DNA of 64,000 bases from an uncultured Verrucomicrobiota bacterium (GTDB lineage: Bacteria; Verrucomicrobiota; Verrucomicrobiia; Opitutales; UBA9783), in NCBI GenBank assembly GCA_946186275.1, contig CAMHMO010000003.1, forward strand, positions 1 to 64,000, read 5' to 3'. Position 1 is the first letter of the stretch, and each line of letters opens with the position of its first letter. Positions 1 to 59,947 of this stretch are shown in pieces. The notes below the pieces were generated by a model. It was not told where the DNA came from and ran no database searches. It saw only the letters and a list, made by a program, of their open reading frames with translations. A program made the position numbers and the translations under genes.

Positions 1-60
1 TGTTCTGTTCTGTTCTGTTCTGTTCTGTTCTGTTCTGTTCTGTTCTGTTCTGTTCTGTTC
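1..60. repeat. Pentanucleotide tandem repeat (TGTTC) x12
   Basis: Twelve perfect head-to-tail copies of TGTTC fill the first 60 bases, so the tract may continue to the left. It ends 83 bases before the ATG of a glycosyltransferase gene. Long perfect repeats of a short unit vary in copy number by slipped-strand mispairing. Next to a surface-modification gene this is the usual arrangement of a phase-variable locus. Whether a promoter lies outside the repeat cannot be judged because the left flank is missing. Confidence 0.97.
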
Positions 61-143
61 AAGGAACCCCCTTTGAAGCTTTTTTTCGATCGGGCATGCA
101 ATTTTCGATTGGGGTTTGAAAATTGCGTGTCGGAGCCGGTTTC

Positions 144-1775
144 ATGAAAGTTGTTGCGACATTTCTCGGTTTGGCGTTGCTGTACCTGATGCACATCGGA
201 ACGCGACCGCTTGCCAATCCCGACGAAGGGCGTTATGCGAGTATCGGTGCGGAAATGCTTCGTACCGATGAGTGGATTGTTCCGCATTTGAACGGCTTGA
301 TTTACTTTGAAAAACCGCCGCTCGGTTACTGGCTGACGGCACTCGGGGAAAAAATCTTCGGCGTTACGCTGTTCGGGGCACGCTTCTTTAATGCCCTCGC
401 GACGTTGTTGACGTGTTCGGTTTTGTACGGTTTTTGCCGACGTTTTTTGTCGAAAAAAGTCGGTTTATGCGCGGCGATTTTGTACGGAACGTCGGGTCTG
501 CCGTTCGGGTTGTCGCAGGTATTGACGCTGGATAATTTTCTGACGTTTTTTCTTACGACCACGCTGCTGCTGTTCGCATCGGGATTTTTGGAGGAAAACG
601 AAACGCACGCAAAGTACTGCTTTTACGGTGCATACCTCTTTATGGCGTTGACGGTGCTGACTAAGGGGTTGATTGGGCTGGTGTTCCCTGCGTTAATCGG
701 TTTTCCGTGGTTACTGTTCACCGAAAATATCAAAAAACTCAACCGCGCGCGCCTGTTTCGCGGAACGCTCTTATTTCTGCTGATTGCGGTTCCGTGGCAC
801 GTCGCGGTGCAACGGAAGTATGAATGTTTCTTCAATTTTTACTTTTGGCACGAACATTTTGAGCGTTATTTGACGAACACTCACCTGCGCGGCAAACCGT
901 GGTATTTTCTGCCGACCGCGTTTCTGTGCGGGTTGATGCCGTGGACGTTTTTTCTGCCGCGTTTAACGAAAAACGCACTTTTCGGAACACGCGATCGCGA
1001 GCGACAAATTGCGCTTTTTGCATTGCTGTGGATGTTCGGGGTGATCGGCTTCTTTTCCTGCTCCCATTCGCAACTTATTCCCTACATTTTGCCCGCCGTT
1101 CCCGCCGCCTGCCTGCTGATGGCGGTCGGTTGGGACAGGACGCATGTCAAAAATGTGCGTTTAGAATGCCTTTTGTGGGCACTTATTTTCCTCGCAACCG
1201 CCGTTGCCGGTCCGTCGATTGTCAAAAAACGCGCTTTGGTGCCGATTCCAACGGATTTGGCATGGGTTTTTGAAGGCATTTTAATCATCGGTTCCGTGGG
1301 CGCGCTGTTTTGGCTGATGAAAAGCTTTCGAACATCGGACGAGCGTTACGTACAAAGGGCATTCGGCGGATTATTAACGACGACCGTTTTGTTGTATTTG
1401 ATGTTTCCGAAGCTGATGCCGTCGTTTCAGCGATGGAATGCGCAATCGCTGTGTCGCGTGATACGGCAACGGGAAGCGGGGGAAGCGGATGTTTTCGGTT
1501 TGTACGGCTATTTCCACGATGTTCCGTTTTATCTGAACCAAAACATCGGTACATTGGAATTTATCGAAAAAGAACACACGCTCGGCATTAAAATTCAGGG
1601 TTGCGACCGTTATTTGCGATGGGAGGCGTTTCAGGCGCGCTGGAAGGAGAAAAAAAGCTGTTATGCGATTGTGAAGAACATTTGCATTCCCGAATTCGAA
1701 GGGCGGATGCGGGAGTACGGATTTTATCCGTTGACGAAGAACGAATGTTTTACGTTATATTGTAATTGTCCGTGA
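144..1775 (+). CDS. ArnT-like lipid A/PMT-family glycosyltransferase
   Basis: An integral inner-membrane glycosyltransferase of about 543 residues, the normal length for ArnT (about 550). The family moves a sugar from undecaprenyl phosphate to lipid A on the periplasmic face. The N-terminus carries the family signature: a first membrane helix, then NPDEGRYASIGAEML with the acidic DE pair in the first periplasmic loop, followed by EWIVPHLNG and YFEKPPLGYW. About ten further hydrophobic segments follow, then a soluble C-terminal part. I chose the ATG at 144 over the upstream TTG at 123 because the first membrane helix starts there. It overlaps the next gene, whose product could make its lipid-linked donor. 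The sugar and acceptor cannot be read from sequence. The TGTTC repeat upstream may control it. Confidence 0.87.
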   Translation: MKVVATFLGLALLYLMHIGTRPLANPDEGRYASIGAEMLRTDEWIVPHLNGLIYFEKPPLGYWLTALGEKIFGVTLFGARFFNALATLLTCSVLYGFCRRFLSKKVGLCAAILYGTSGLPFGLSQVLTLDNFLTFFLTTTLLLFASGFLEENETHAKYCFYGAYLFMALTVLTKGLIGLVFPALIGFPWLLFTENIKKLNRARLFRGTLLFLLIAVPWHVAVQRKYECFFNFYFWHEHFERYLTNTHLRGKPWYFLPTAFLCGLMPWTFFLPRLTKNALFGTRDRERQIALFALLWMFGVIGFFSCSHSQLIPYILPAVPAACLLMAVGWDRTHVKNVRLECLLWALIFLATAVAGPSIVKKRALVPIPTDLAWVFEGILIIGSVGALFWLMKSFRTSDERYVQRAFGGLLTTTVLLYLMFPKLMPSFQRWNAQSLCRVIRQREAGEADVFGLYGYFHDVPFYLNQNIGTLEFIEKEHTLGIKIQGCDRYLRWEAFQARWKEKKSCYAIVKNICIPEFEGRMREYGFYPLTKNECFTLYCNCP

Positions 1776-2806
1776 CAACAGAACCGAACGATGTTTTGAA
1801 GTCTTCCGTTCCGTCCGATGGAGCTTTTTCGTCGGCGCAGGCGGAGGTTCCACAGTTGTCGATCGTTATCCCGATGTACAACGAGGAACCGAACGTGGAC
1901 GAGTTGTGTACGCGTTTGATGAAAGTTTTGGAAGCATCGAAGCGTACGTTTGAGATTGTTGCCGTCAACGACGGGAGCCGTGACGGGACGTTGGAAAAGC
2001 TGTTGCGGTGGCAGAAAAAATACCCGCATATCTTCCGAATTTTGGATTTCAACGGCAATTTCGGACACCACAATGCGCTTTGGGCGGGCTTCGAGCACGT
2101 ACGCGGCGCGTGGGTGATTTCCATGGATGCCGATTTGCAAAATCCGCCCGAGGAAATCCCGAAGCTGTTGGAGAAAATCGACGAAGGGTACGATTACGTC
2201 GGCAGTTGGCGGCTCGGGAAGCGTCGCGATGCCAAGTGGCGCGATTGGGCATCGAAGTTGGACAATAAGTTTCGCGGAAAAATTACCGACATTCGCATGA
2301 CCGACCAGGGGTGCATGTTGCGCGCGTATAAGCGGTCGATTGTCGATGCGATTGTGCACTGCGGCGATTACACGGCGTTCATTCCGGCATTGGCGTATAA
2401 ATTTGCCGCGCGCTACACGGAAATCGGTATGCGACATGCGCCGCGCTTTCAGGGCAAAACCAAATACGGATTGTATTATTTACTGCGCACGCATTTCGAT
2501 TTGATGACGGGATTTTCGCTGGTGCCGCTGCAGGTTTTTACGCTGTTCGGGTTCGCGCTGGCTGGCGGCAGTTTTCTGTTGGTGCTCTACATGATCGGTC
2601 GGCGTTTGTTCATCGGACCCGAAGCGGAGGGTGTTTTTACGCTGTTTGCGATTTTATTTTTCATGGTCAGCGTCGCCATCGTCGGCATCGGTCTCATCGG
2701 CGAATATGTCGGGCGCACCTACCAAATCGCCCAGGGGCGTCCGCGGTATATTTTGAAAAAATTGTACGATACGCAGGGGACTTCGGCAGAGGCAAGAGGG
2801 GCTTAG
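1766..2806 (+). CDS. GT2 family polyprenyl-phosphate glycosyltransferase (ArnC/GtrB/DPM1-like)
   Basis: A family 2 glycosyltransferase of about 345 residues. The catalytic domain begins at about residue 28 with LSIVIPMYNEEPNVDEL, followed by VAVNDGSRDGT and the DADLQNPPEEI block, whose acidic residues bind the nucleotide sugar and metal. Two C-terminal membrane helices (about 250-320) are typical of enzymes that load a sugar onto undecaprenyl phosphate at the cytoplasmic face. The start is uncertain: TTG at 1766 or GTG at 1772, both overlapping or abutting the end of the ArnT-like gene, so translation is probably coupled. The two products fit a donor-synthesis and transfer pair for LPS decoration. 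ArnC, GtrB and dolichol-phosphate mannosyltransferase homologues cannot be told apart here. Confidence 0.9.
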   Translation: MSVTTEPNDVLKSSVPSDGAFSSAQAEVPQLSIVIPMYNEEPNVDELCTRLMKVLEASKRTFEIVAVNDGSRDGTLEKLLRWQKKYPHIFRILDFNGNFGHHNALWAGFEHVRGAWVISMDADLQNPPEEIPKLLEKIDEGYDYVGSWRLGKRRDAKWRDWASKLDNKFRGKITDIRMTDQGCMLRAYKRSIVDAIVHCGDYTAFIPALAYKFAARYTEIGMRHAPRFQGKTKYGLYYLLRTHFDLMTGFSLVPLQVFTLFGFALAGGSFLLVLYMIGRRLFIGPEAEGVFTLFAILFFMVSVAIVGIGLIGEYVGRTYQIAQGRPRYILKKLYDTQGTSAEARGA

Positions 2807-29225: not shown

Positions 29226-29513
29226 GTGGAAATTATCGGTGATAAGAAGGAAAAATCTCTGGAAGAGTTTAGTGGAAGCGAAAGCATCGGGCAGAAGAGA
29301 ACTATTAAACAGACGAACAATTTCTGGCGGTATTTCCTGTTGTCCATTTGTAAAGTACGTTCTGCCATCCTTTCGGAGGCGGTGAAAAGAAGTTTTTCCG
29401 TTTTTTTAAACTTTCCTAAATTTTCCAACATACCCCCCCAAAAAAAAGAATCCTTGCCCCCTACCTACCTACCTACCTACCTACCTACCTACCATGGAAG
29501 CATAAAGCTATGA
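29226..29513 (+). CDS. Possible leader ORF spanning the CTAC repeat
   Basis: A 95-codon frame starting with GTG directly after the symporter stop and ending in an ATGA overlap with the outer-membrane protein start at 29510. The CTAC repeat lies inside it and is read as PTYLPTYLPTY. If translated, a change in repeat number would shift its frame and alter coupling to the next gene. It has no recognisable domain and may be untranslated. Confidence 0.25.
   Translation: MEIIGDKKEKSLEEFSGSESIGQKRTIKQTNNFWRYFLLSICKVRSAILSEAVKRSFSVFLNFPKFSNIPPQKKESLPPTYLPTYLPTYHGSIKL
29461..29492. repeat. Tetranucleotide tandem repeat (CTAC) x8
   Basis: Eight perfect CTAC copies lie 17 bases before the start codon of an outer-membrane beta-barrel gene, immediately upstream of its GGAAG ribosome-binding site. 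Seven C followed by eight A occur at about 29433-29447. Tetranucleotide repeats at surface genes are typical phase-variation elements. Confidence 0.95.
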
Positions 29514-30337
29514 AAAACAAATTCTTCTTTACGGCAGGCATCGTTGGGATGTTGTCGGGTGTGGCGTTCGGTGCGACGGACGGTGCGGATGTTGGCTACG
29601 GACGAGAATGGAGCCCGTACGTGACATTGAGAGGCGGATGGTTGTTTGGAGGGAAGACGAAGTATCATTATCATTGGAATGGTCGCGATCCGGGAATGCC
29701 TCCGACGCCCGACAGGGAAGTAAGTACAGGTACCGACAGGAATTTCGGAAGCGCGTGGTCGGGTTCGGGAGAAGTTGGCGTGTCACTCTGCGAAGATCGG
29801 GTTTCCGTCGGTCTTGAGTTGGGGTACTTCGCGGGAAAGAAAAGGGTTGCTTTTGTGGAAAACGGTGAGCCCGGAGTTCCGAACGATTACTGTTATGTTG
29901 GCGTCATCTATTTTTCCGAGCCCGATTGCTATTACAGAACGGACGGGAAGTGTAAAAATCTTTTTGCCGCCGTTAATGTGATATTGAAGAAAGACGTTGC
30001 CGAACGCGCATTTTTGTACGGTGGTGTCGGCGCGGGTATGGCACGGTCGGATTTTGGGAGTATCGATTACAGGTATCATCAGTACCAGCCTGCGGATGAG
30101 TATCATGACGGGAGGATTAATTTTAAGGCGAAGTGGCGATTTTTGGGGCAGGTATTTGGTGGTTTCGGTTGGTACTTAAATGAGAATTGGTCGTTGACGG
30201 TTGGTTACAAATTGCGGTATTTGGCGGGTTCCTGTCATGAGTCGGGAACGTTTGTAGGCGACAATATCAAGTGGGATTGAAAAGTAAAGCAGGATTCTAT
30301 TCACGCGGTTGAGGCGGGGCTGACGTATCGGTTTTAG
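29510..30337 (+). pseudogene. Outer-membrane beta-barrel protein interrupted near its end by TGA
   Basis: A signal peptide (MKNKFFFTAGIVGMLSGVAFG) is followed by amphipathic beta strands, for example YVTLRGGWLFGG and WSLTVGYKLRYLAG. The first frame stops at TGA 30278-30280 after 256 residues. The same frame then continues for 18 codons to TAG (30335-30337), ending [11 protein letters not shown], a classic last beta strand with terminal Phe needed for Bam assembly. The TGA thus removes the sorting signal, through a nonsense mutation or by being read through. The product may be a small OmpW/OmpA-like barrel of unknown function. The CTAC repeat and a GGAAG ribosome-binding site lie just upstream. 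Confidence 0.75.
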
Positions 30338-59176: not shown

Positions 59177-59908
59177 TTACCATTCTACCTTGGAAAAAAA
59201 ATGTCCCACACGATTACAATATTTCACATGGCAACTGCTTAGGGATATATCGCCATTTTTTTCTTCTTTAAAATGGAATTCACCTTTCAAAAGCCTAGTG
59301 TTACCTTGAGCAATATTCATTACTATCACCCCGTTCCCTTCCGGACTGAAAAAATTCCCGAAGAAAGAACAGACACGAAATAAAATTTCAGTCTTGTAAC
59401 GACCATATACGGCACGATCGCATACGGCGTCAACGGTTTGTTTATCCAAAATCATTTCAAGAAACTCCCGACTTCCCAATGTTTGCAATATCCTGCGCAC
59501 CTTCGGCATCATATTTGCTTCGACTCTCCTTAATTCGGCAAAGGAAAGCACGACTCCTTGTACGTCAGAACCAGCCCAGGGATTCGGATACGGCGACATA
59601 TACACTCGCAATTTCTTTAACTCGACCATGGTATTAAAATTGGCATCGTGACCCCACGGCGTACGAAGTTTATAGAGCGGTCTGTTCGCTATTCGAAATA
59701 CCTCCGGTATACTCTCGCCCAGAAGGTGCAAATCGTCCGCTTTCGGTAAAAGTTCGTCAAACATTACCGGAATTAACCGATAATTTGCCCCCCAATAGGA
59801 CTGTATAATCTGCGGTTCCGTATATCCCGCTTTCGCGTTTTGTGTCCATGCACCGGCAATCAACGCCACAATGCATCCCATGACATTGTATATTGTATTT
59901 TTACGCAT
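59177..59908 (-). CDS. Secreted protein of unknown function behind a poly-G tract
   Basis: A 243-residue protein with a signal peptide (MRKNTIYNVMGCIVALIAGAWTQNAKA). The mature part is mixed, with segments such as SYWGANYRLIPVMFDELLPKAD and SPYPNPWAGSDVQGVVLSFAELRRVEANMMPKVRRILQTLG. No family is recognised. Upstream on the minus strand TTGAC is directly followed by G9, so transcription may depend on tract length. It lies between ribF and the truB remnant and may have been inserted there. Confidence 0.72.
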   Translation of the reverse strand: MRKNTIYNVMGCIVALIAGAWTQNAKAGYTEPQIIQSYWGANYRLIPVMFDELLPKADDLHLLGESIPEVFRIANRPLYKLRTPWGHDANFNTMVELKKLRVYMSPYPNPWAGSDVQGVVLSFAELRRVEANMMPKVRRILQTLGSREFLEMILDKQTVDAVCDRAVYGRYKTEILFRVCSFFGNFFSPEGNGVIVMNIAQGNTRLLKGEFHFKEEKNGDISLSSCHVKYCNRVGHFFSKVEW

Positions 59909-59938: not shown

Positions 59939-59947
59939 CCCCCCCCC
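59939..59947. repeat. Homopolymer tract of nine C (G9 on the minus strand)
   Basis: A G9 run on the minus strand directly follows TTGAC (59952-59948), 30 bases upstream of the secreted-protein gene. It would lie in the promoter spacer, where length changes alter -35/-10 spacing as in known phase-variable promoters. A clear -10 was not found (GATAAG at a 19-base spacing is the best candidate). Confidence 0.8.

Follow-up and report, generated by a model that had tools for sequence, protein, structure and literature searches.

A TGTTC repeat in a short leader reading frame before an ArnT-like/ArnC-like gene pair: a candidate phase-variation locus in an uncultured rumen Opitutales genus

In intragenic SSR contingency loci such as opa of Neisseria the repeat lies inside the gene and the wrong frames truncate the product. 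A different arrangement is found at pil1 of S. gallolyticus, where GCAGA repeats lie in a leader peptide and longer leaders open a terminator hairpin (PMC3894217). Phase variation has been demonstrated in the Verrucomicrobiota, in the literature that we searched, by invertible elements, and the open-access literature searched gave no example of an SSR switch acting by translational coupling. Here we describe a TGTTC array at the start of the window (the whole 64,000-nt stretch of DNA analysed, from contig C3 of a 1.02-Mb, 16-contig genome), base 1 of which is the contig end and lies inside the array. The sequence features suggest, with a probability that we put at about 0.52, an SSR contingency (phase-variation) locus that would act through leader termination and translational coupling. 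The features concerned are as follows.

1..60, plus strand: (TGTTC)12, cut by the contig end and continuing in contig C15 (sequence, shuffles and contig termini)
1..147, plus strand: 3′ part of the leader ORF in its longest phase, (CSVLF)nKEPPLKLFFDRACNFRLGFENCVSEPVS and stop (translation and frame analysis)
61..143, plus strand: conserved stretch from array to arnT, 81/83 identical to UBA3222
74..76, plus strand: TGA at which the leader ends in phase n = 1 mod 3, 70 nt upstream of the arnT ATG (frame analysis)
93..131, plus strand: predicted 16-bp hairpin, −21 kcal/mol, z −3.3, without a U-tract after it (folding prediction)
117..119, plus strand: stop in the arnT frame, TGA (TAA in UBA3222), the leader end in phase n = 2 mod 3 (alignment and frame analysis)
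132..135, plus strand: GGAG, the likely arnT SD, adjoining the hairpin (sequence)
144..1775, plus strand: ArnT-like PMT-family (GT83-type) glycosyltransferase, 543 aa (domain and structure matches)
1772..2806, plus strand: ArnC-like polyprenyl-phosphate GT2 glycosyltransferase with a GTG start (structure matches)

The preliminary description of this DNA had claimed twelve perfect TGTTC copies immediately before an ArnT-like/ArnC-like pair. The copies are present at bases 1–60 (plus strand) and form a perfect short tandem array well above chance, as in SSR contingency loci (0 of 100 shuffles gave even four copies with two mismatches), and the pair follows them at 144–1775 and 1772–2806, with a gap of 83 nt between the array and the arnT ATG. 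Elsewhere in the genome, four or more TGTTC copies are found only at the end of contig C15 (3,826 b), the last 55 nt of which consist of this array in another phase (L010:3772-3826). The assembly k-mer is 55, as the termini of contigs C2 and C5 share an identical 55 nt. C15 and C3 are most simply read as the two sides of one array longer than the k-mer. Extending the left flank, as had been proposed, thus recovered the continuation of the array and the leader start, but because C3 begins and C15 ends in the array and k is 55, the twelve copies are an assembly minimum and not a count, so that the copy number in this genome is at least 12.

Two closely related genomes came out of a protein search: Verrucomicrobia bacterium UBA3222, which is a rumen Opitutales MAG, and Opitutales MAG RGIG5041 (from roe-deer rumen). 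The array of UBA3222 is intact, with eight copies between the same genes as here; its contig DEWA01000006, which matches C15 plus C3 at ~89–93%, has the order ffh, pgpA, a pseudopilin-like gene, an MBL-fold hydrolase gene, TGTTC x8, arnT and the GT2 gene, and runs on to rnpA and yidC. The array here is accordingly placed 3′ of the MBL-fold gene and 5′ of arnT. The RGIG5041 contig breaks off as soon as the array begins. Comparison of repeat number in relatives, another suggestion of the preliminary description, gives a difference between species at the orthologous site (8 in UBA3222 vs at least 12 here). Family members outside the genus have an arnT gene at 48–54% identity, mostly with a GT2 gene directly after it, and no repeat at this pair; among 103 genomes sampled from the order (a sample without UBA3222) only the present one has the array.

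The arnT start at ATG 144 is supported by the alignment of homologues from that point and by the GGAG at 132–135, and the GTG start of the ArnC-like gene overlaps the arnT stop (GTGA, 1772–1775). The ArnT-like protein has matches to PMT/Arnt_C and to the solved structure of ArnT (5ezm, E 2e-47), and the alignment shows its PDEGRY and YFEKPP motifs, so that both the ArnT fold and the motifs are present, the Arnt_C score lying just under its cut-off. The second protein matches ArnC structures (9hwj, E 8e-80). Neither protein reaches the NCBIfam equivalog cut-off (223 vs 567 bits for the ArnT-like protein). We infer that the GT2 enzyme loads a sugar on polyprenyl phosphate and that the ArnT-like protein transfers it to an envelope acceptor, which is possibly lipid A. 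Lipid A is probably made, as LpxC is found in the genome, and the sugar transfer to lipid A proposed earlier is to that extent plausible; on the other side, none of the three DegT-family aminotransferases of this 92% complete genome exceeds the curated ArnB cut-off (the best fits are PseC-like) and L-Ara4N synthesis genes were not identified in it.

The array lies inside a short predicted leader ORF which, as at pil1, has its own good SD and a start codon (ATG or GTG), and which occurs in all three genomes of the genus. GGAGAGGGGA is kept upstream of the array in 3/3 of them, followed by ATG (GTG in UBA3222), seven codons and then the array; the ATG in C15 is at L010:3754-3756, after the SD GGAGAGGGG. 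The array reads CSVLF and is stop-free in every frame, and downstream of it the leader ends, according to frame, at 74–76 (before the hairpin), at 117–119 (within it, 27 nt short of arnT) or at TGA 145–147, which overlaps the arnT ATG (ATGA). The three stops and the ATGA overlap are present in both complete alleles (here and UBA3222), and UBA3222 with its eight copies is in a phase predicted to be uncoupled at arnT. As the 117–119 stop (TGA or TAA) is in the arnT frame in both species the leader can never fuse to ArnT, and the repeat is not joined in frame to the gene as it is in frameshift loci of the Opa/lic type. Frame switching in a coding leader, one of two mechanisms offered by the preliminary description, is thus retained in modified form: the leader ORF exists, but only the site of ribosome termination relative to the arnT start can change. 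An ORF that runs through the array on the opposite strand (3..287, minus strand, with EQNRT repeats; 213 aa in UBA3222) was considered spurious because it is antisense to two conserved genes.

Between the array and arnT the sequence is more conserved than arnT itself: 1453/1632 coding positions are identical to UBA3222 and no 83-nt window of arnT reaches 81, a comparison that rests on two alleles only (here and UBA3222). The hairpin lies between the stop of the shortest phase and the gene and is entered by the longer phases, as in loci of the pil1 type. It has lost one pair in UBA3222, where the z-score of the region is weak (−0.9 to −1.5). When folds were constrained by ribosome footprints there was a clear difference for the longest phase only, accessibility of the arnT SD being alike for the two shorter stops (0.63 vs 0.56). 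A long-range pairing between the end of the array and the start of arnT is present here but is broken by T142G in UBA3222 with no compensation, and was not relied on.

According to the reading that we prefer, slippage by one unit would shift the leader frame after the array and bring another stop into use. In the longest phase ribosomes would cross the hairpin and stop at TGA 145–147 on the arnT ATG, so that arnT would be translated by coupling and the ArnC-like gene along with it through the GTGA overlap. In the third phase they would stop at 74–76, leaving the hairpin beside the arnT SD intact, and arnT would be poorly translated. In the second they would stop at 117–119, inside the hairpin. 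Changes in repeat length would in this way probably switch surface decoration up and down. The earlier idea of envelope decoration switched by copy number is itself well supported by context, namely the difference of 8 vs at least 12 copies and the presence of other SSRs at OMP and glycan genes.

Similar leaders recur in the genus. ATG(AG)8 precedes a sugar-nucleotide dehydrogenase gene here, ATGAGAGGG(AG)15 precedes its UBA3222 counterpart, and ATG(AG)14 precedes an MBOAT-type acyltransferase gene in UBA3222. As at arnT, one phase of these AG leaders ends on the gene start (ATGA or GTGA), two end upstream and none gives a fusion; at the MBOAT gene UBA3222 is in the coupled phase. Since ATGA starts are common (13.5% of 229 ORFs have an RTGA start whose open frame is 84 nt or longer), chance could explain the overlap at arnT if it is taken by itself (about 0.14). 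Taken together, the three loci (product ~0.003 if independent) are suggestive, but the two AG leaders may derive from a single copied cassette and hence not be independent. We raise only tentatively the idea of a reusable switch class in this uncultured rumen Opitutales genus, in which penta- and dinucleotide SSRs in short leader ORFs would put one phase in three on the start of a surface-glycan gene and produce phase variation by translational coupling, and not by shifting the frame of the gene, altering promoter spacing or terminating transcription.

(CCTA)n arrays lie in front of beta-barrel OMP paralogues at five sites in this genome and at four in the two relatives, with none in other genera of the family. 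A partial census (~332 kb of unmasked stretches) also shows (CT)10 and poly-C/A tracts upstream of OMP genes, a G10 tract within one such gene, and ATG(AG)n leaders. No comparable di- to pentanucleotide array occurs in ~80 kb from two outgroup genomes. MutS is present in the genome, so the repeats are not simply a product of loss of mismatch repair. Several individual loci may be recorded. (CCTA)8.5 at 29460–29513 of the window stands immediately in front of a gene for a beta-barrel OMP-like protein (29510). A further four CCTA arrays of differing copy number lie before or beside OMP paralogues (C1:5357, C2:151780, C5:99184 and C6:75890), and both congeners have arrays of similar kind. At 30278–30337 the CCTA-associated OMP gene of the window has an in-frame TGA before the C-terminal strand that is conserved in its paralogues, and another such paralogue (G000:C6:75950-76662, L062) has a frameshift soon after its start. 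A G10 tract lies in the coding sequence of an OMP paralogue (L095:5633-5642), and ATG(AG)14 leads into a short and possibly degenerate frame ahead of a gene for a membrane protein (L103:1870-2272; G000:C1:159870). A second SSR mode in the genus is represented by candidate −35/−10 spacer repeats: TTGAC + A15 + TATAT in UBA3222 (L098:5799-5813) and TTGA + (CT)10 + AAT before an OMP gene here (L094:8011-8030). TTGAC followed by G9 (59939–59947, minus strand), upstream of a minus-strand ORF starting at 59908 of the window, resembles a promoter-spacer homopolymer.

In favour of coupling we count the leader SD and start kept in three genomes, an array flanked by the same genes in 8 vs at least 12 copies, the conservation of 61–143 above any equal stretch of arnT, the three-phase layout at (AG)n leaders, the genus-specific SSRs at OMP genes and the S. 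gallolyticus pil1 precedent; against it we count the predicted uncoupled phase of UBA3222, its weaker hairpin and the fact that there are two alleles only. The main mechanistic rival is transcription attenuation as in pil1, in which leader length would decide the state of a terminator hairpin before arnT and the coupling would be incidental. The layout is the same, a pentanucleotide SSR in an SD-bearing leader ORF and then a hairpin (−21 vs −18.7 kcal/mol), and a weaker hairpin at the array end (58–77) is followed by GC and T7. The strong hairpin, however, has no U-tract, which is required in pil1 (PMC3894217); the weak one, with z −0.84, is no better than shuffles; and no terminator-like site came out of a scan of 1–400, nor was there one in UBA3222. 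We consider attenuation unlikely and favour translational coupling, as the locus shares the pil1 layout but fails the U-tract test. That the array is a hypermutable, functionally neutral intergenic microsatellite would fit the predicted uncoupled phase of UBA3222, but it is rather improbable given that the same site is kept between species at ~89% coding identity, that its flanks are more conserved than coding sequence and that SSRs are concentrated at surface genes and absent from the outgroup samples. The next mechanistic rival, also from the preliminary description, is that the array alters the spacing or upstream sequence of an arnT promoter, the leader ORF being incidental. Other SSRs of the genus do resemble promoter-spacer repeats (TTGAC + poly-A15 or (CT)10 + a −10-like box), but the scan found no promoter-like site around the array in either species and the array is without the CACTTGAC-type box of those loci, the leader SD and start being conserved instead, so that promoter spacing finds no support and is quite improbable. 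An assembly artefact creating the twelve copies is largely refuted already and can practically be discounted, for although the contig ends in the array with a terminus reflecting k = 55, UBA3222 spans the locus with eight copies and continuous genes on both sides, and RGIG5041 also breaks at the array start.

If translational coupling is correct, slippage-based phase variation would be extended to a ~1-Mb uncultured rumen lineage of Verrucomicrobiota, in a design where repeat number tunes coupling instead of breaking a gene and which, unlike classic on/off loci, would give three-state control (on, intermediate and off) with the enzyme frame intact. Set against known systems, the pair resembles the ArnC/ArnT lipid A pair (PDB 9hwj, 5ezm) in that each enzyme matches over most of its length and the two are encoded side by side, but it differs in its sub-threshold equivalog scores and in the L-Ara4N synthesis genes not identified. 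Akkermansia cps1 (PMC13343947) provides phase-variable envelope glycans in the same phylum, by an invertible element and not by repeat slippage. With the Haemophilus LPS genes (PMC2651432) the locus shares a non-triplet repeat near the 5′ end, envelope genes as targets and a three-phase logic, but those genes contain the repeat themselves and give a truncated product in the wrong frames, whereas here a conserved stop separates repeat and arnT. The closest likeness in layout is to pil1/pil3 (PMC3894217): a pentanucleotide SSR sits in a short leader ORF that has an SD of its own, the frame downstream of the repeat determines whether the leader ends ahead of, within or past a hairpin upstream of the controlled operon, and copy number differs between strains. 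In pil1 the hairpin acts transcriptionally, as a U-tract terminator that lies ~130 nt upstream of the start of the gene. The hairpin of the present locus has no U-tract and borders on the arnT SD, and the leader in its longest phase stops at the arnT start codon, which would give translational coupling; the phylum and the target (glycosyltransferases) are also different. The arnT locus is best read as a variant of the pil1 leader switch that lacks the terminator U-tract.
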